The notes beneath the pieces were generated by a model, which was not told the DNA's origin, ran no database searches, and saw nothing but the letters and a program-made list of their open reading frames with translations. 64,000 nt of DNA from Candidatus Electrothrix rattekaaiensis (GTDB lineage Bacteria; Desulfobacterota; Desulfobulbia; Desulfobulbales; Desulfobulbaceae): positions 1,178,001-1,242,000 of the forward strand of contig JAVQMD010000002.1 in NCBI GenBank assembly GCA_032595675.1, given 5' to 3'. The position numbers and the translations under genes were made by a program. Below, piece after piece: positions 27,694-52,619 of the stretch (positions are counted from its first letter, which is position 1; each line of letters opens with the position of its first letter).

Positions 27694-27790
27694 CCGGAAA
27701 GTTGAATAAAGCCACAGCCGTCGTGAGACGGTGTCGGAAAGCTACGGGTCTCCAGAGGGGAGATAGCCGGGTCGCCTACTTTTACCTCTT
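27694..27790 (+). ncRNA. GEMM-type riboswitch, copy 1
   Basis: Core elements: AAAGCCACAGCCGTC, a GTGA (GNRA) tetraloop on a P2 stem, GGAAAGCTACGGGTCT, then a P3 stem closed by GGAGA and AGCCGGGTCGCC. This matches the cyclic-dinucleotide GEMM-I pattern (GNRA loop docking onto P3; conserved CGGGTCT...AGCCGGGT). The base aligned with the ligand-selecting G20 appears to be A, as in cGAMP-type members. Copies 2 and 3 at 45521 and 47061 share the sequence. Nothing recognisable lies directly downstream here. Confidence 0.7.
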
Positions 27791-28142
27791 ACTAGGATAT
27801 TGTTATGAAAAATCCACGCATACTCTCCCATTGTATCGGTACAGTTCATGATTGGTCGATACGCCTTTTTACTCCCGGTCAATCCAAGTTGAAAGTTCGT
27901 TTTTCTCAGCAATATAGGTATGATCGAAGATCCCCTAGACCGATATCTGTTCTCTTTTTTCCCTTGCAACAGGGCAAGGATATTCCTGTTCGTATTGACC
28001 CCCGAAGGATTCGGTAATTTTTTAGAGAGATTTTCTCGAAAAACCCCGGGTTGGTCATCTGGTTCAGGACGGAAATCCTGACGACAGGATTCGTCTGTGC
28101 AGCCATTTTGCGGCTAAAAAAAGACACGAAAGAGCGTTGGCT

Positions 28143-43902: not shown

Positions 43903-44762
43903 GTATGTCCGAGAGCGGTTTGGATGCCGAAACGTGTTCACCTTTCCGACGGCCAAGGTGTTGGATTATGCTGCGGATTGAGCTGCGTTGGGGCGTATCT
44001 ACGACTTAAGGGAGAGCCAATTTTCTGTACCCAGTGTTGAAACACTGGGTTATTTTCGGCAGTCCCTCCGGGACGCTGTTTCCCGGAGATCCCTGCCCCG
44101 GAGGGGCAATTGATAATAGCCCATCGTTTTAACGGTGGGCGGTTAGAATGGAAAATTCAAATTCTTCTGATGCTGAGTAGACAGCCCCCCAACTCGTAAA
44201 TACGCCCGTTGCATTGGAAGACTCGGACAACCCTTTTGCTGTGGTGGTGATGGCGCACCTCAAGGCGCAGGAGACTGCATCGGGTCGGGCTGAAGAGCGG
44301 AAGCAGTGGAAACTGCGGCTGATCCGGCTGCTGTATGCACGCGGATACGAGCGAAAGGACGTACTGGAGCTGTTCCGTTTCATCGATTGGCTGCTGATTC
44401 TGCCGCCTGAACTGGAACGACGCTTTACCGAGGAAGTGAGTAGAATAGAGGAGGGTCAAGGGATTGAATATATTACAAGTGTTGAACGGATCGGAATGCA
44501 GCGCGGGCTTGAGCAGGGTATGAAGCAAGGACTTGAACAGGGAGTAAAGCTGGGGAGTCTGGAGCAGGCCAAGATTATGCTGCTGGAGGTGCTCTCAGTC
44601 CGGTTCGGGCCGGTATCTCGTGAGCTGACCGGGTGTATTGAACAGATTGCGGATCATGAGGTGTTGCAGGAGCTGCATCGCGTTGCGCTTCGTTGCGCCG
44701 ATGTGCAGGAGTTTACGGCACGGCTTGATGCGTCGGAAGGGGATGACAAGACCGCTTCATAG
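43900..44762 (+). pseudogene. Rpn-like gene split by a repeat-rich insertion
   Basis: Bases 43900-43981 encode 'RERFGCRNVFTFPTAKVLDYA', matching the middle of the intact paralogue at 45757. The match resumes at about 44211 ('ALEDSDNPFAVVVMAHLK') and continues to 44762. The N-terminal half is missing and about 230 bases are inserted between the two parts. The remaining 182-codon frame (44214-44762) ends in a charged 'EQGMKQGLEQGVKLG' tail. Probably non-functional, although the 3' frame could still be translated. Confidence 0.75.
43982..44210. repeat. Hairpin-rich insertion in the Rpn-like gene
   Basis: Contains CCCAGTG-TTGAAA-CACTGGG (about 44030-44050), a CAGTCCCTCCGGGAC arm with CCCGGAG further on, and GCCCATCGTTTTAACGGTGGGC (about 44119-44140). 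These are the compact palindromes of a dispersed extragenic element. Its limits are inferred from where homology to the intact Rpn paralogue stops and resumes. Confidence 0.65.
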
Positions 44763-45215: not shown

Positions 45216-45515
45216 ATGCCTCTGCATATTAGAAAAGCTGCATACCTGAAGGACTATACAGTGGAAGTGACATTCAGTGACGGCAGAAAAGGAACCGTTG
45301 ATCTGCGTGATGCTCTTCGAGGGCCTATGTTTGAGGTGCTACGGGACAAGGCAATGTTTGCGGGTCTGCGGGTTGATGACGAATTGGAAACCATTGTTTG
45401 GCCCAACGGTGCTGATCTCGCTCCTGAGTATGTTTATTTCAGAGCGTTCAGAGATGAACCGGAGTTGCAGGAGCAGTTTGCGCGGTGGGGTTATATTCTG
45501 CAAAAACGGTCATGA
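45216..45515 (+). CDS. DUF2442-family protein
   Basis: 99 residues. 'VTFSDGRKGTVDLRDALRGP' and 'IVWPNGADLAPEYVYF' are DUF2442 motifs. Partner of the DUF4160 gene just upstream. Confidence 0.9.
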   Translation: MPLHIRKAAYLKDYTVEVTFSDGRKGTVDLRDALRGPMFEVLRDKAMFAGLRVDDELETIVWPNGADLAPEYVYFRAFRDEPELQEQFARWGYILQKRS

Positions 45516-45520
45516 GGTGC

Positions 45521-45620
45521 TGTCGGAACAGGAAAGTTGATAAAGCCACAGCCGTCGTGAGGCGGTGTCGGAAAGCCACGGGTCTCTGTATAAGACAGCC
45601 GGGTTGCCTACTTTAACCTC
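45521..45620 (+). ncRNA. GEMM-type riboswitch, copy 2
   Basis: GATAAAGCCACAGCCGTC, GTGA tetraloop, GGCGGTGTCGGAAAGCC, ACGGGTCT...AGACAGCCGGGTTGCC. Nearly identical to copy 3 from the core through an ATG about 20 bases after it (GGGAAGTATGTTATG). The base aligned with G20 is A. It precedes the Rpn-like gene at 45757 by about 140 bases. The intervening ATG (45641) opens only a short frame. Confidence 0.72.
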
Positions 45621-45756
45621 TGCATAGCGGGAAGTATGTTATGAGTTCCACCTCCAAAATACCCGATCCGGGTACACTCTTCTGTTGTTTGGGCCGGTTG
45701 GTTTCCGCCTGCTATCGTTCTCGTTTACCGAAATATTCCATACAGTCAAAATAACA

Positions 45757-46827
45757 ATGACGGACAAACCGGAAACAACAGAGCGTCAGGACTTCGACAG
45801 CCCATGGAAGGAGATTCTGGAATGTTATTTTCAGGAATTCATCACCTTCTTTTTTCCTGAGATCGCCGAAGAAACGGACTGGGAACGGGGCTATCTCTTT
45901 CTTGACAAGGAATTTCAGCAGGTGACACGGGAGGCCGAACTCGGCAGGCGGTATGCGGACAAGCTTGTCCGGCTGTGGCGGAAAAACGGCGACGAGGCAT
46001 GGGTGCTGGTTCATGTGGAAGTGCAGGGGCAGGAGGAAAGAAGCTTCGAGGAACGCATGTTCGTGTACAATTACCGGATTTTCGACCGGTTCCGCAGGCC
46101 GGTGGTCAGTCTGGCCGTATTGGCCGACGAACGAAAAAACTGGCGGCCCGACCATTTTGGCTATGAACTCTGGGGATGCAGGGTCGGTATCCGTTTTCCG
46201 AGCGTGAAGATTCTTGATTATGCGGACCGCCCGGATATTAGGGAAGAAAACACCAATCCCTTTGCGCTGGCGGTGACGGCTCATCTGAAAACACAGGAAA
46301 CACGTCATGACGCTGACGGGAGGAAAAAATGGAAACTGTATCTGGTGAGAAAGCTGTATGAACACGGTTATGAGAAAGAGGATGTGATCCGGCTTTTTCA
46401 CTTTATCGACTGGATGATGGCTCTGCCGGAATACATGGAAGAAGAGTTCTGGCAGGAGATCGGCGAATATGAGGAGGAAAAAAAGGTGCGGTATGTAACA
46501 AGTGTGGAGCGGATCGGATTCAGACGTGGAGTTTCAGAAGGACGACAGCAGGGCGTGGCTGAGGGACGACAGCAAGGCGTGGCTGAGGGGCGACAGCAGG
46601 GTATGTTGGAAGGACTGCTGGAAGGTACGCTCGAAGCGATTGAGATGGGGCTGTCGGTCAAGTTCGGCGTGAAAGGGCTACGGCTGCTGCCGGAGATTCG
46701 GCGGATCAGGGATATTGAGCGTCTGAATATGATTAAACAGATCATAAGGGTTACGGATGATCTTGCCGAGGTCGAGGCATCGCTGGAATCTCCCGGCAAA
46801 GACGGGGAATTGCCTGACGGAAATTAA
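45757..46827 (+). CDS. Rpn-like PD-(D/E)XK family protein
   Basis: 356 residues from the ATG at 45757 (MTDKPETTERQDF). 'ETDWERGYLFLDKEFQQVTR', then 'VLVHVEVQGQEERSFEERMF' (E-x-Q core), then a 'KILDYADRPDIREENTNPFA' segment. The C-terminal third has three 8-residue repeats, (V/G)AEGRQQG. The intact relative of the split gene at 43900. These proteins multiply as mobile-like paralogues; whether they cut DNA here is unknown. Confidence 0.82.
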   Translation: MTDKPETTERQDFDSPWKEILECYFQEFITFFFPEIAEETDWERGYLFLDKEFQQVTREAELGRRYADKLVRLWRKNGDEAWVLVHVEVQGQEERSFEERMFVYNYRIFDRFRRPVVSLAVLADERKNWRPDHFGYELWGCRVGIRFPSVKILDYADRPDIREENTNPFALAVTAHLKTQETRHDADGRKKWKLYLVRKLYEHGYEKEDVIRLFHFIDWMMALPEYMEEEFWQEIGEYEEEKKVRYVTSVERIGFRRGVSEGRQQGVAEGRQQGVAEGRQQGMLEGLLEGTLEAIEMGLSVKFGVKGLRLLPEIRRIRDIERLNMIKQIIRVTDDLAEVEASLESPGKDGELPDGN

Positions 46828-47333
46828 AAATCAGTGATGTTGGGGTTCGCAAAGCTCACCCCAACCTACGAACTGTGCAGCAAAGGGTGTTATTTCGCAA
46901 TCGTTTTTTTCATTGCGCCCCAAGCATTTTTGCTCTGTATCTCCTCATCACGTTAAGGTTTTTTATGGAAAACAGTTGACAAGCACAAAGTAACAAGGCT
47001 ATGTTTCGTTCACCATAACAAATGGCAATGCTTATCCACTGAGCAGGTGCCTTGACTTTCTGGTCGTCATTGGAAAGTTGTTCAAGCCACAACCGTCGTG
47101 AGGCGGTGTCGGAAAGCCACGGGTCTTTGTATAAGACAGCCGGGTTACCTCCTTTAACCTCTGAATATCGGGAAGTATGTTATGCGTTCTACCCAAAATT
47201 ACTCGCTCCCAATACAACGTTATCGTATAGGCGAGATAATTACCGATTGCTGTTTCTTCCCATCCGCTGTTCCTGAAATATTTCAGTCTGATTACTCAAA
47301 TAAAGAAGTTATTTTCTACGCCCAAGAAACATC
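46828..47333 (+). other. Intergenic region before the large secreted protein
   Basis: 506 bases without a gene. A GTTGGGGTTCGC...TCACCCCAAC hairpin lies at 46838-46870, and GEMM riboswitch copy 3 at 47061-47165. After the riboswitch an ATG at 47181 opens a short frame (MRSTQNYSL...) that ends before the next gene. Confidence 0.5.
47061..47165 (+). ncRNA. GEMM-type riboswitch, copy 3
   Basis: TTCAAGCCACAACCGTC, GTGA tetraloop, GGCGGTGTCGGAAAGCC, ACGGGTCTTTGTATAAGAC, AGCCGGGTTACC. It differs from copies 1 and 2 at positions that keep the P2 and P3 stems. It lies about 170 bases upstream of the 1229-residue secreted protein and is the best candidate for a functional control element. Ligand c-di-GMP or cGAMP; the A aligned with G20 favours cGAMP-type recognition (inference). 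Confidence 0.75.
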
Positions 47334-50300
47334 ATGAAATATCTTATTTTGTCGCTAACTCTTCTGATAATTACATTTTCTTGTTTGCCTAATAGGGTAA
47401 TTGCTGCTGATGTTGTCCCTACAGGTTCTGTGCAGGTTTTTATTGAGCCTGAAGGAGCGGTAGATGCCGGGGCGAAATGGGAAGTTCAATTGTGGCATGG
47501 TTGGGAAGGGCCGTTTAGTAGCGGCTACACAGCAAGCCATTTTACTGTTGATGATGCTCGGGTGAGGGGTACAGACATTGTCGGGTGGGACACGCCTGCT
47601 GAGATTCCCATTAAGATCACAGACGGTGGATTGGCACAGGCAACACTGATCTATACCCGCATAACCGGTTCCATCGAGATTACAATAGAGCCTGAAGAGG
47701 CACGGGATGCCGGTGCTACGTGGGGGACAATGATTGACGGAATCGGATGGTGGGGTCCGGCGAATAGCGACAGAAAGTACGATCATTTTCCGGTTGGACC
47801 GAAAACAATCAGTTTCAGCGACATTTCCGGCTGGCAAACGCCTGACGATATCACAATTAATGTAGTGGCAGCTGATGTTGTCAAAAGAACCGTGACGTAT
47901 ACTCAGGACAGCCCGGAAACCGGCAAAGTTAAGGTAACGATATCTCCCAGTGAAGCTGTTGATGCCGGAGCGCAGTGGCGGACAGTAACATCATCCGGCC
48001 CAAATTTATGGAAGGACAGTGGTGAAGTTGAAACTGGTCATCCTGCAGGTCTTTTGAAGGTTGAGTTTAAAGATGTTTCCGGCTGGAATACTCCTGACTC
48101 AAAAAACGTCACTGTTACTGCTGACTCTACCAAAACGACATCGGGAACGTACACAGAAGATGGCCCTTCTGACCCAGAAACCGGCTCAGTCGAGGTAACG
48201 ATCTACCCCAGTGAAGCTGTTGCTGCGGGAGCACAATGGCGGACAGTGACAGCATCAGGTCCGAATACATGGAGAGACAGCGGTGATATTGAATCCGCTC
48301 ATCCGGCGGGTTTGTTGACGGTTGAGTTTAAAGATGTTTCCGGTTGGAGCAAGCCATCAAATAGGACGGTTGATATTATTGCCGGAACAACGGCTTCTGA
48401 AGCAGGAACGTACACCGAAGATTCCCCGACAACCGGGTCTGTTCAGGTCACAATCAGTCCGACTGAAGCAGTTTCTGCCGGGGCACAATGGAAGCTCAAG
48501 CTCGCGGACGGCACCCTGCTGGGACCGTACAGCAGCGGCGATACAGCGAGCAATCTTGAGCCGGGCAGTGGAGTTGTCCAGTTTGTTGATGTGACAGACT
48601 GGATCACGCCTGCTGATGCCTCAGTCAACGTAGTTGCCGGAGACACAGCCACAGCCAGTGGTGAATATACGCAGCACCTTGAAGAACCGGATGTCTGCAT
48701 CGGTCATGACTACGAGCAGCAGACCCCGCTTGCCGGGGTAACCCCGCCGACTGTTGAGATTTCCGGTGATTCCGCAGTGAACGAACAGGCTGAACTCAGT
48801 CTTTCTGCCAACTCTACTGTAGATGAAGCCAAGGGCGGCAGTAAATTCTATTACTGGTGCGCGGAAAAGGGCCTGCTCCAGGCCGACCCTGCTCATCCTG
48901 ATTACAGTCAGGTGAAATTCATTGCACCGAAAGTTCCCGGAAGCGACGAAGATATTCGCATCTACGCTAAGGTCGGCGACACGCTGGGCTATGTGGGCCG
49001 GGACATCTTTCATGTCAATGTCTCGGAACGCGGCAATTTCGATGCCAGCGATCCGGCACCTACGGTTTCTGTGACCCTGCCGGATATCCTCTATGCAGGT
49101 CGTCCATTCCGTATTCTCTATACAATTGCTGATGCCCTGTTTGCTGCCCCTGCCCGTGCCGATCTGTCTGCTCCAGTACGGATGCAGGCAATAGCGGCGG
49201 AGATGAGTGAGAGCGCAGCAGCGGTTGAAGAACCGACCTCTGATCTCTACACCGATATGTATATCAGCACAGACGGCGGCGACTTCATTCAGGTTGTCAA
49301 GGGATTGCGTGGCGAGAGCGGAGCATATACAATCATTCCGCCGACAGTGACGGAAAATTTCAGTATTAAGGTTGTTGTTACCGACGGGAACAGCACCGTA
49401 GAAAAAATCATTGATGCTCCGGCTGTGCAGCCGTGGTATGAGATTTCCGGGTACTGCTCAGACGGGGAAAGCGGCGAACCGATTCCCAACTGTCTGGTCC
49501 AGGCAGCGGAATACGGCAGGGCACTCAGCGATTACACCGGCGGCTTTGAACTGGCCGGGCTTAACGAGGGCAGCTTTACGGTGAGCGCAGGTCATGCTGA
49601 CTACTATTTTGAACCCCGCAAGGTCAGTGTTGCCTTGACCAAAGATCATCCGGGCCAGGATGTTTCCTTTACAGGCTGGCCGATGACCGATGACGATGAC
49701 GACGGAATGCCGGACAGTTGGGAAGAGAAATATTTCGGCGATCTGTCGCAGGACGGCAGTGGTGATTTTGATCAGGATGGCCTTGCTGATCTGGATGAAT
49801 TTTATCAGGGTACAGACCCGACAGCAGCGGACAGCGATGCAGACGGTATCCCGGACGGCTGGGAAGTCCTGCACGGGCTTGATCCGCTGACCGATGACAG
49901 CGGTGATGACTCGGATAATGACGGGTTCAGCAATTATGAAGAGTATGAAGCAGGTACCGATCCGCAGGATGCCAGCTCGCATCCGGTGTTCTGCCATTTC
50001 CGGGTGCCGGGTGATTATGCAACGCTGAGTTTAGCGATAATGGCGGCGCACGGCAGAACAGACGGAGCTGCGGTCTGCGTCAGTCCGGGCACCTATGAGG
50101 AGAACGTCGAGCTGCTGGATAAGGTCTGGCTGGTGGCGGAATCCAAAGATCCGGCAGAAACTGTGATTCTCGGTGACGGCAAGAAGGATGTGGTGACTAT
50201 GAACAAGGTTGATTCCGGCGGTGTGGTCGGGTTCACCATCAAAAGTAAGGGCAAAGGCAAGAAGAACAAGACCCAGGCCGACGGCATTGTTTTTAAAGGT

Positions 50301-51023
50301 GCTTCCCAGCGGGCCGTGATTGCCCGGAACATCATCACCGACACCCGGAACGCGGTCATCCTGCGCGGCAATGTTTCGCCGCTGATTATGAATAATACCG
50401 TGGTTGGTAATCAGAGCGACGGCATTGAGGTGAGCGGTAATTCCCCGGCCCAGGTGCAGAATAATATTGTGGCGGATAATAGCGGTTACGGGATTGTCAG
50501 GAACGGTCATGCTCTTGATGTTCTTGCCTATAATGATGCCTTTGGCAACAGTAAGGTAGATTATCGCAAGACTGAAATGGGTGAAGGCGGGCTGAATGCT
50601 GACCCGCTGTTTGCAGAGGGCTACCGGCTGGGAGCGGATTCGCCCTGTCTTGATGCCGGACGTACTCTGAACGGTGCTGTGACGGATATGGGGGCCTATG
50701 GCGGCAACACGGCTGCGCTGGTGTATGGCGGCTATGTGCCCGGTCCGCCGGACAGTGATAAAGACGGGATCAGTGATGATTGGGAGATGCAGTATTTTGC
50801 GAGCCTTGCGGCTGCCGATGCGGCCAGCGATCATGACGGTGACGGGTATTCTGATTATGCTGAGTACGTCAACAGCGTGAACGGGGCGGTTGATCCAGAT
50901 GGTAGCGGGTTTGATCCTTTGGCGGAGAATGCGGCTGGAGGGGATGGTTGGAGTTCCGGGGATAATACGGCTCTGAAAGGGCTTTTGCCGTTTATTTATG
51001 AGTTGTTGTTGAAGAAAGAATAG
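47334..51023 (+). CDS. Large secreted multidomain surface protein
   Basis: 1229 residues. Signal peptide at 1-25. Five ~80-residue repeats at about 30-450, each with 'EAV.AGAQW' and 'DVSGW.TP' motifs and a closing GTYT strand. An Ig-like region follows, then a carboxypeptidase-regulatory-like module near 701 ('ISGYCSDGESGEPIPNC'). A calcium-binding thrombospondin-3-like stretch (784-880; DDDDDGMPDSW, DSDADGIPDGW, DSDNDGFSNYEE) precedes a right-handed beta-helix (about 890-1110; 'NNTVVGNQSDGIEV'). A second calcium stretch lies at 1140-1175. No membrane anchor is visible. Probably exported to the cell surface. Preceded by a riboswitch. Confidence 0.88.
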   Translation: MKYLILSLTLLIITFSCLPNRVIAADVVPTGSVQVFIEPEGAVDAGAKWEVQLWHGWEGPFSSGYTASHFTVDDARVRGTDIVGWDTPAEIPIKITDGGLAQATLIYTRITGSIEITIEPEEARDAGATWGTMIDGIGWWGPANSDRKYDHFPVGPKTISFSDISGWQTPDDITINVVAADVVKRTVTYTQDSPETGKVKVTISPSEAVDAGAQWRTVTSSGPNLWKDSGEVETGHPAGLLKVEFKDVSGWNTPDSKNVTVTADSTKTTSGTYTEDGPSDPETGSVEVTIYPSEAVAAGAQWRTVTASGPNTWRDSGDIESAHPAGLLTVEFKDVSGWSKPSNRTVDIIAGTTASEAGTYTEDSPTTGSVQVTISPTEAVSAGAQWKLKLADGTLLGPYSSGDTASNLEPGSGVVQFVDVTDWITPADASVNVVAGDTATASGEYTQHLEEPDVCIGHDYEQQTPLAGVTPPTVEISGDSAVNEQAELSLSANSTVDEAKGGSKFYYWCAEKGLLQADPAHPDYSQVKFIAPKVPGSDEDIRIYAKVGDTLGYVGRDIFHVNVSERGNFDASDPAPTVSVTLPDILYAGRPFRILYTIADALFAAPARADLSAPVRMQAIAAEMSESAAAVEEPTSDLYTDMYISTDGGDFIQVVKGLRGESGAYTIIPPTVTENFSIKVVVTDGNSTVEKIIDAPAVQPWYEISGYCSDGESGEPIPNCLVQAAEYGRALSDYTGGFELAGLNEGSFTVSAGHADYYFEPRKVSVALTKDHPGQDVSFTGWPMTDDDDDGMPDSWEEKYFGDLSQDGSGDFDQDGLADLDEFYQGTDPTAADSDADGIPDGWEVLHGLDPLTDDSGDDSDNDGFSNYEEYEAGTDPQDASSHPVFCHFRVPGDYATLSLAIMAAHGRTDGAAVCVSPGTYEENVELLDKVWLVAESKDPAETVILGDGKKDVVTMNKVDSGGVVGFTIKSKGKGKKNKTQADGIVFKGASQRAVIARNIITDTRNAVILRGNVSPLIMNNTVVGNQSDGIEVSGNSPAQVQNNIVADNSGYGIVRNGHALDVLAYNDAFGNSKVDYRKTEMGEGGLNADPLFAEGYRLGADSPCLDAGRTLNGAVTDMGAYGGNTAALVYGGYVPGPPDSDKDGISDDWEMQYFASLAAADAASDHDGDGYSDYAEYVNSVNGAVDPDGSGFDPLAENAAGGDGWSSGDNTALKGLLPFIYELLLKKE

Positions 51024-51122: not shown

Positions 51123-52619
51123 ATGTCTCTTCGCTTCATAATAGTTCTAGCACTATGTTGCTTTTCGCTCACCTCCCATAGAGGTTATGCGGGATGTAAA
51201 CCTTTTCCAGATGATGGTGATTATTGTGAAGATGTACAATATTTATATGATCATAAGATGATTAATGGATATAAGAATGGGTGGTTTGGGTTTGGTGATA
51301 TTTTGTCAAGAAGAGAAATGATGAAAATGACTCTTCTTTCTTTAAAAGATAAAGAAAAGACAGAAGCAGAGTATAAAAATGAAATATATAATAAGGATAC
51401 TGATACTGTAACTTGTTTTCCTGATGTCTCTAAAAGCGATTGGGCATATGAATATATCTGTTATTCTAAAAAAGAAGGTTTTGTTATAGGATATCCTGGT
51501 GGAAAATTTCATCCTGGTGAAAAAATTACATATGATGAAGCATCAAAGATTATTTTAAAAACATTATCAGGAGGTAAGGAGTGTTGGAAAAGTAACACTT
51601 CTGACTGGTGGATTCACTATGTTAGTTATATGAATGAAATTATTAAATCTGATGTGATAAGGTCAAAAAAAGTTGAGCGTGAGTTTTTTGCTCATATGCT
51701 GAGGAATGCCATGGAGGTAATAGATGGGATAAAAAGCTGTGAGCCAGTCAAGGATAATGATTTTGACGATTATATTGGTATAATGAAAACAACACGGCCA
51801 TATAATGACATTGGAAAACCTATTGATGAAATACGTTGCAATGAACGGAATATGAATATCCGAGTTAAAGATAGAAAAATATGCACTCGGCGATTTGAAA
51901 AAGGTGAGCTGGCTATTGTATATAACGATGACGGAAAAATTGATTTTGCAGTACCATATGTACCATTGTTTAATGAATATTTTGGAAGTGGTAACACCTG
52001 TTCAATTATGCCTTATGATACAGATCAATATTATACATCTGAGCCGCTATTTCAAAAGGATGCTTGCAATGGGATGACATTATGTGGTAATCGTGCTAAG
52101 GGTTGTCATATACTATCTGTTGGCATGATTGATTATTATTACAATAATGAAAGGATTAATGGAGGCGAAGTAAATGATTATAATAAATGGCTAAGAGATA
52201 ATGGACAAAGTGATGGATGTGGCCTTATTTTACCTGCAAATAAAAAATATATGAATTTGTCAAATCAAGGAAATCAGAGTATATTGAAAACATTTGAGGT
52301 TAGAAATAGTGATTATATTTCTCAAATGCAAAAAAAACTAAATGGTAATTCTAAATTACAATCTTATGTAAAAACGAGAAGGCCAGTTCTTTTGCAATAC
52401 AAATACAAAGGTCCAGTTGACAATAATACACATGCCATCGTGTTAGTGGGGAAAGATGTTTCTGGTAATTATATTGTTCAAGACCCATATTTTAACAGGC
52501 TATCAAATGGAAGGGCTACAATGTTTTTAACTTTGCAAGAAGCTATTGAGAATCATAAAAGAGAGCGAGATACAACAGATATCACCTTCACAAAGCTTAT
52601 TTTTTATTACGGGAAGTAA
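51123..52619 (+). CDS. Secreted protein with SLH-like repeats and C39-like C-terminus
   Basis: 498 residues. Signal peptide at 1-24. Two S-layer-homology-like modules: 'CEDVQYLYDHKMINGYKNGW' with 'ILSRREMMKM', and 'CFPDVSKSDWAYEYICYSKK' with 'EKITYDEASKIIL'. The C-terminal 140 residues resemble the C39-type cysteine-peptidase fold: Cys366 (DGCGL), His437 (NTHAIVLVG), Asp454 (IVQDPY). The CG region is not textbook, so activity is uncertain. The gene is markedly AT-rich compared with its neighbour, suggesting transfer. It starts 100 bases after the large secreted protein. Confidence 0.72.
   Translation: MSLRFIIVLALCCFSLTSHRGYAGCKPFPDDGDYCEDVQYLYDHKMINGYKNGWFGFGDILSRREMMKMTLLSLKDKEKTEAEYKNEIYNKDTDTVTCFPDVSKSDWAYEYICYSKKEGFVIGYPGGKFHPGEKITYDEASKIILKTLSGGKECWKSNTSDWWIHYVSYMNEIIKSDVIRSKKVEREFFAHMLRNAMEVIDGIKSCEPVKDNDFDDYIGIMKTTRPYNDIGKPIDEIRCNERNMNIRVKDRKICTRRFEKGELAIVYNDDGKIDFAVPYVPLFNEYFGSGNTCSIMPYDTDQYYTSEPLFQKDACNGMTLCGNRAKGCHILSVGMIDYYYNNERINGGEVNDYNKWLRDNGQSDGCGLILPANKKYMNLSNQGNQSILKTFEVRNSDYISQMQKKLNGNSKLQSYVKTRRPVLLQYKYKGPVDNNTHAIVLVGKDVSGNYIVQDPYFNRLSNGRATMFLTLQEAIENHKRERDTTDITFTKLIFYYGK

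Follow-up and report, generated by a model that had tools for sequence, protein, structure and literature searches.

A c-di-GMP-I riboswitch of a probable Candidatus Electrothrix cable bacterium, most likely switching translation off through a putative anti-Shine-Dalgarno arm upstream of the aptamer

Which signal is read by the RNA element that precedes the gene of a large, probably secreted protein in this genome, and what would it do to the frames behind it? The element lies in a window of 64,000 nucleotides, by which we mean the whole stretch of DNA that was analysed. The original prediction had described it as a GEMM-type riboswitch tuned to cGAMP. The single 16S gene found in the genome matches exactly both primers of the pair ELF645F and CB836R, reported in PMC7348212 to be highly specific for Ca. 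Electrothrix, and on this basis we take the genus to be most likely Ca. Electrothrix, the marine cable bacteria. Our reading, which we consider probable, is that of a c-di-GMP-I riboswitch that would most likely switch translation off. The coordinates of the features are collected in Table 1.

Table 1. Features of the riboswitch locus and of the other two aptamer copies in the window (SD, Shine-Dalgarno)
Feature	Position	Strand	Remarks
Sigma-70-like promoter site	46976..47005	+	TTGACA, 18 nt, TATGTT; one site vs a mean of 1.0 in shuffled sequences, weak alone
Predicted 5' stem-loop	47024..47051	+	GGCA...UGCC; MFE fold
Putative anti-SD arm	47054..47064	+	complementary to 47069-47079 (local hairpin) or, from 47055, to 47167-47176 (SD)
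3' arm of the upstream hairpin	47069..47079	+	includes AAAG 47074-47077, also the P1 5' strand
c-di-GMP-I (GEMM-I) aptamer	47076..47152	+	RF01051; G20, A47, C92
P1 3' strand	47152..47155	+	CUUU; complementary to AAAG 47074-47077
Shine-Dalgarno-like sequence	47170..47175	+	GGGAAG; part of the region that can pair with the anti-SD arm
51-codon open frame	47182..47337	+	opened by the conserved start codon; its stop TGA shares ATGA (47334-47337) with the following ATG
1229-aa probably secreted protein	47334..51023	+	N-terminal repeats, CarboxypepD_reg-like region (below cut-off), TSP3 motifs, right-handed beta-helix
498-aa protein	51123..52619	+	next same-strand ORF; SLH (over cut-off), C39-peptidase-like region (just under cut-off)
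Second aptamer copy	45536..45612	+	Rfam; G20, A47, C92
37-codon frame after the second copy	45641..45754	+	stop 2 nt before in-frame ATG 45757 of the next ORF (to 46827)
Third aptamer copy	27701..27779	+	Rfam; G20, A47, C92
70-codon open frame after the third copy	27805..28017	+	no codon-position bias in its family

That the element is of the GEMM type was borne out. The Rfam covariance model of the c-di-GMP-I class (RF01051) matched it at 57.2 bits (E 1.5e-8), well over the gathering score of 35, and the three copies of the window scored 57.2, 52.0 and 59.2 bits. The features expected of the aptamer are in place, namely a GNRA-type loop (GUGA), GGAAAGCC and CGGGTCT...AGCCGGGT. The extent first given to the element, 47061-47333, was inexact; the promoter-like site, the anti-SD hairpin, the aptamer and the start codon together occupy about 46976-47184, with open frame beyond. 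Compared with the RF01051 consensus, the P2/P3 fold, the GNRA loop and the bases G20, A47 and C92 are the same, and the element appears to be a genuine member of this known class with the usual ligand pocket. Two traits set the copies of the genus apart from the consensus: the closing pair 21-46 is C-G instead of G-C, and the arm that would control the SD is placed upstream of the aptamer, in competition with P1. The upstream DNA of the copy at 45536 has no match to that of the copy at 47076. This second copy begins 20 nt past the stop of the preceding frame (45513-45536) and lacks the upstream stretch common to other copies; it is perhaps a truncated duplicate.

The class is abundant in this group. 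The genome of the window (4.48 Mb, 5 contigs) holds 21 copies, all over the cut-off, and Infernal found 21, 27, 18, 21, 10, 9, 19 and 21 copies in the eight genomes of the genus (146 in total). In a family sample of 59 genomes, these eight included, at least one copy was present in 41. Outside the genus the numbers in this sample ranged from 0 to 9 per genome, with the exception of G043, from another genus of the same family, which carries 25 and is the sole sampled genome of this kind above nine. Two tandem triple arrays of GEMM-I aptamers, with a spacing of 131-135 nt, were seen at G002:C1:4928718-4929063 (L192) and G006:C1:4046050-4046395 (L193); a triple-tandem c-di-GMP riboswitch is already described in PMC4759541. 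Elsewhere in the window (44030-44075), a match to the Acido-Lenti-1 RNA reached 37.0 bits, exactly its gathering score.

The ligand pocket was compared over 143 full-length copies of the eight genomes, obtained from 147 distinct nhmmer hits after dropping four short ones; at least one of the Infernal copies, which lies at a contig end in G001, falls outside this set. The positions 20, 47 and 92 follow the Vc2 numbering. The contacts of structure 4YAZ, as quoted in PMC7288161, agree with it. Position 20 is G in 139 copies and A in four, position 47 is A in all 143, and at position 92 there are 135 copies with C and eight with U. The full set G20/A47/C92 is found in 131. The alignments give the three copies of the window this canonical c-di-GMP pocket. 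The pair 21-46 is C-G throughout, and the pair 22-45 is C-G in 141 copies and U-G in two; these pairs fix the register of the alignment, and the A that had been read at position 20 in all three window copies is therefore a base upstream of it, the aligned base being G in each of them. Judged by this pocket, the signal of the window copies should be c-di-GMP and not cGAMP, and the riboswitch at 47076 would bind it.

We weighed two other ligand classes against this assignment. That the window copies are cGAMP (GEMM-Ib) riboswitches, as first proposed, now seems very unlikely, given G at position 20 in all three instead of the A of that class, even though a GGDEF protein with a Hypr signature is conserved in all eight genomes of the genus. 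In the C21-G46 pair and in P3 the copies also seem to resemble the cGAMP aptamer of Geobacter. In PMC9262584 position 20 is treated as a selectivity factor and not as a hard filter, and consequently some binding of cGAMP by G20 copies may occur. The cGAMP idea fails for the window copies, and it fits other copies of the genus, those with G20A (four of 143), one of which is in this genome. Still less probable, to the point of being hardly credible, is a membership in the variant class c-di-GMP-I-GGC (RF03167), which belongs to the same clan as RF01051. The copy at 45536 does reach 60.6 bits with its model (cut-off 59), and four of the 21 copies of the genome pass, but base 47, which we took from the RF03167 consensus to be the one behind the GGC label, is G in that consensus and A in every copy compared.

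The flanks common to many copies are a CUUUCYG-like arm on the upstream side (96 of 132 by a simple pattern), a GGAAAG stretch, and an SD with its start codon, which is found 16-30 nt past the end of the HMM match (5th to 95th percentile). A simple GGyA..TGCC pattern like that of the 5' stem-loop appears in 37 of 143. Across the genus, the arm has two complementary partners, the SD and the GGAAAG strand that doubles as the 5' strand of P1. In the copy at 47076 the helix between the arm and the SD has ten pairs (47055-47064 with 47167-47176), with a wider duplex of -12.5 kcal/mol, and there is no terminator-like site at 46830-47400. The copies at 45536 and 27701 pair weakly, at -8.2 kcal/mol each (-9.2 and -8.7 in a second computation).

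To put numbers on this complementarity we exchanged arms and SDs between loci, with 2000 permutations per redundancy level; 10 or 11 of the 143 copies stayed outside the folding and swap tests because they had no start 12-40 nt downstream or because the arm column was gapped or short. Native pairs were stabler than swapped ones with 132, 93 and 61 loci (z -7.9, -6.4 and -5.1; 0 of 2000 permutations each). At the strictest level, 61 loci below 65% identity, the mean was -11.77 kcal/mol for native and -10.16 for swapped duplexes. Control stretches taken before the SD (z -0.9, -0.6, 0.0 for the same three sets) and in the aptamer (z -1.4, -1.1, -0.8) had no effect. A third control, after the start codon, gave z of +4.1, +2.8 and +1.2, that is, native duplexes weaker, in the opposite direction; the first two of these values tell us that a swap z of such size can have other causes and that these z scores should not be read as probabilities. 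Covariation is also seen between the arm and its other partner, the 5' strand of P1 (z -7.6, 94 loci). The SD is complementary to an arm with an alternative partner, as expected of an anti-SD riboswitch, and the covariation agrees with the complementarity.

The direction of switching was approached by folding. In an ensemble that includes neither ligand energy nor cotranscriptional folding, the mean accessibility of the SD was 0.34 in the free RNA and dropped to 0.21 when the aptamer was enforced. Enforcing it came at a mean cost of 6.2 kcal/mol (ligand energy excluded). Of 133 copies, 68 lost more than 0.1 in accessibility, two gained more than 0.1, and 63 changed by 0.1 or less. Two clean alternative states were not seen in the MFE folds of six copies. 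Our first idea had been the reverse one, a translational ON switch in which the 3' strand of P1 serves as anti-SD until c-di-GMP binds, and some copies do carry a stretch like UACCUGCU, complementary by eye to AGGAGGUA. It was dropped after the ensemble computation, which led us to the upstream arm: in the free ensemble the mean pairing of the SD with the P1 3' strand is no higher than 0.06, and the 68 copies that close against the two that open speak against it as well, so that we hold an ON switch to be improbable. We infer instead a translational OFF switch with the anti-SD upstream of the aptamer, an unusual expression platform that the sequence supports. Without ligand, the arm would pair with 47069-47079, occupying the 5' strand of P1 and leaving the SD open. 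With c-di-GMP bound, P1 would form (47074-47077 with 47152-47155) and free the arm, which would then pair with the SD region in the ten-pair helix given above and block initiation at 47182. Translational coupling through the overlapping ATGA would carry the effect on to the 1229-aa protein.

This last step brings us to the frames. Downstream of the switch, the first start codon preceded by an SD is that at 47182 and not that at 47334, and the frame that it opens shows no clear coding signature. In the whole genome, the conserved start opens a frame of 122-1702 codons at nine of the 21 copies, mostly with a signal-peptide-like start (by eye), and one of 28-123 codons, counted as short, at the other 12. 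By plain count, four of these 12, the 47182 frame among them, stop no more than 13 nt from a start codon further on. Frames related to that at 27805-28017 follow a copy in seven of the eight genomes, this one included. No Pfam family was found at E 0.1 for five riboswitch-controlled proteins. Behind the copy at 45536, a 380-aa ORF (45685-46827) has three 24-nt repeats and looks Rpn-like by eye, with no family over the cut-off.

The short frames have the look of peptide families, and we considered that they encode leader peptides. The idea was rejected, as the changes are spread nearly evenly over the codon positions: 370/364/402 in the family of the frame after 27701, 399/327/412 in the one that includes the two other window copies, 204/182/190 in QKLLQ and 181/183/199 in VKFS, against 61/45/113 and 197/143/485 in secreted-protein controls. 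Counter to this rejection, dN/dS was below 1 in most of the pairs printed. Three families had a mild excess at third positions (DYTLF 285/261/366, MTSMN 19/21/32, MRTTE 66/52/78). All these families were chosen by eye, with the near-identical L155 excluded, and their pairs are non-independent.

The 1229-aa protein has TSP3_bac, Beta_helix and NosD matches over the Pfam cut-off, six [DN]x[DN]x[DN]G motifs and, by eye, a signal-peptide-like N-terminus; it is reasonable to regard it as a putative calcium-binding, secreted protein. No relative was found among solved structures at E 0.01, and a search of genome contigs gave three distant, partial matches, which were left out of account. A relative in genome G006 is 88% identical over residues 357-1227 and 57% over 32-278, with a signal-peptide-like start of its own, and no riboswitch precedes it, either in the upstream DNA examined or in the Infernal list of copies. 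Besides, the 117 nt upstream of the copy at 47076 have their closest match, at 96% identity, in a copy of G007. The downstream part of this G007 copy matches the window copy at 45536 along a longer stretch (86% identity, 138 nt), and the frames that come after it are by eye HEPN-like and nucleotidyltransferase-like. This combination suggests that downstream genes turn over, and each switch has the look of a unit behind which the genes are exchanged within short spans of evolution.

Control of the large surface protein by the switch is possible, and weakened by the start at 47182 and by the riboswitch-free relative. Because the 51-codon frame has no clear coding signature and the sister genome has its relative without a switch, we call c-di-GMP control of the 1229-aa protein no more than plausible. 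The aptamer may act on the 51-codon frame alone, or be a stranded cassette, with the large protein outside c-di-GMP control. The G006 relative, the G007 copy with its other genes and the leader frame without clear codon selection all favour that reading, to which we give a substantial chance, short of even. Against it, aptamer and ATG lie on the same strand 181 nt apart with no terminator-like site between, the two frames overlap at ATGA, and the proportion of short frames that end close to a downstream start (four of 12) may point to coupling. It overlaps with the OFF switch proposed here, the RNA part of which would stand in either case.

The few altered pockets in the genus have a distribution of their own. 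The four A20 copies, in G000, G002, G006 and G007, all precede a secreted-looking protein of 123-124 aa with the motif ADNDCFKA; the one in G000 (G000:C2:1008362-1008439, L018) also has A19G. A paralog of this protein in G000 is preceded by a switch (L008) that retains G20. Six of the eight U92 copies (G000, G002, G003, G005, G006 and G007; that of G000 at G000:C1:1214142-1214219, L011) stand before a second, similar-looking secreted-looking protein of 122-124 aa, and the other two, both in G003, before short frames. For Vc2 it is reported that G20A lets the RNA accept cGAMP and that combining G20A with C92U shifts the preference to c-di-AMP (PMC9049102, PMC7288161). From base pairing, C92U alone would admit an adenine. 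A hand-made pattern for the pocket bases matched only three of 23 loci in other genera of the family, all with G20 and C92, and our reading of the pocket is accordingly meant for this genus.

We also looked for an enzyme that could make cGAMP. There are 13 GGDEF matches in the genome, 10 of which could be placed by motif scripts. The selectivity position is Asp in nine of them and Thr in one, G000:C1:268757-269659. According to PMC6456294, Hypr enzymes have Ser or Thr at the position of GacA 347/348 together with a GGDE[F/Y] motif, and this protein has the Thr there with GGDEF kept. At the Y304 position it reads NMK, where the other GGDEFs of the genome have NRR or similar (matched by eye). 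The same residues are conserved in the orthologs of the other seven genomes, at 86-98% identity (eight of eight genomes), and in the four orthologs examined from another genus; the replacement of the usual Arg at the Y304 position, also part of the Hypr signature, holds in the same 12 sequences (eight of the genus and four of the other one). We regard this protein as a candidate cGAMP enzyme.

Parts of this system have known counterparts. The Vc2 riboswitch of Vibrio cholerae is described in PMC9262584 as a translational OFF switch with P1 as key element, and the one at 47076 would likewise act on translation through P1 and in the OFF direction, as deduced here from sequence. As in Geobacter, with its GEMM-Ib riboswitches and GacA (PMC6456294, PMC8835794), electroactive bacteria here combine many GEMM-I copies per genome with a Hypr-signature GGDEF; unlike GEMM-Ib, the window copies have G20, and A20 is rare in the genus. 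A link between a nucleotide signal and the cell surface had been presented as new, and here there is a precedent: Bc2 of Bacillus thuringiensis, a c-di-GMP-I switch before the surface adhesin gene cap (PMC4933901), although this is described as a transcriptional ON switch with a terminator, unlike the one in the window. Our literature searches gave nothing relevant on riboswitches in cable bacteria nor on Electrothrix diguanylate enzymes. Neither did they give any paper on a riboswitch with an anti-SD platform upstream of the aptamer, which, with most subscription journals outside the search, is weak evidence that the platform is new.

The genus-level context is more interesting than the single copy of the window. 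We tentatively propose, with more doubt than conviction, a two-signal riboswitch regulon in marine cable bacteria, in which some 20 paralogous translational switches per genome would share one scaffold with the anti-SD upstream of the aptamer. Most would respond to c-di-GMP and a few would have been retuned to cGAMP by single pocket changes, C92U being a second natural route to adenine, with the cGAMP supplied by the Hypr-signature GGDEF. With the same enzyme signature and candidate sensors now seen in a further electroactive lineage, a shared logic can be put to the test. As cable bacteria are said to be unculturable (PMC10926707), a regulon legible in the sequence itself shows what their second messengers may control; the nine switches of this genome placed directly before long, mostly secreted-looking proteins are a hint at such targets.
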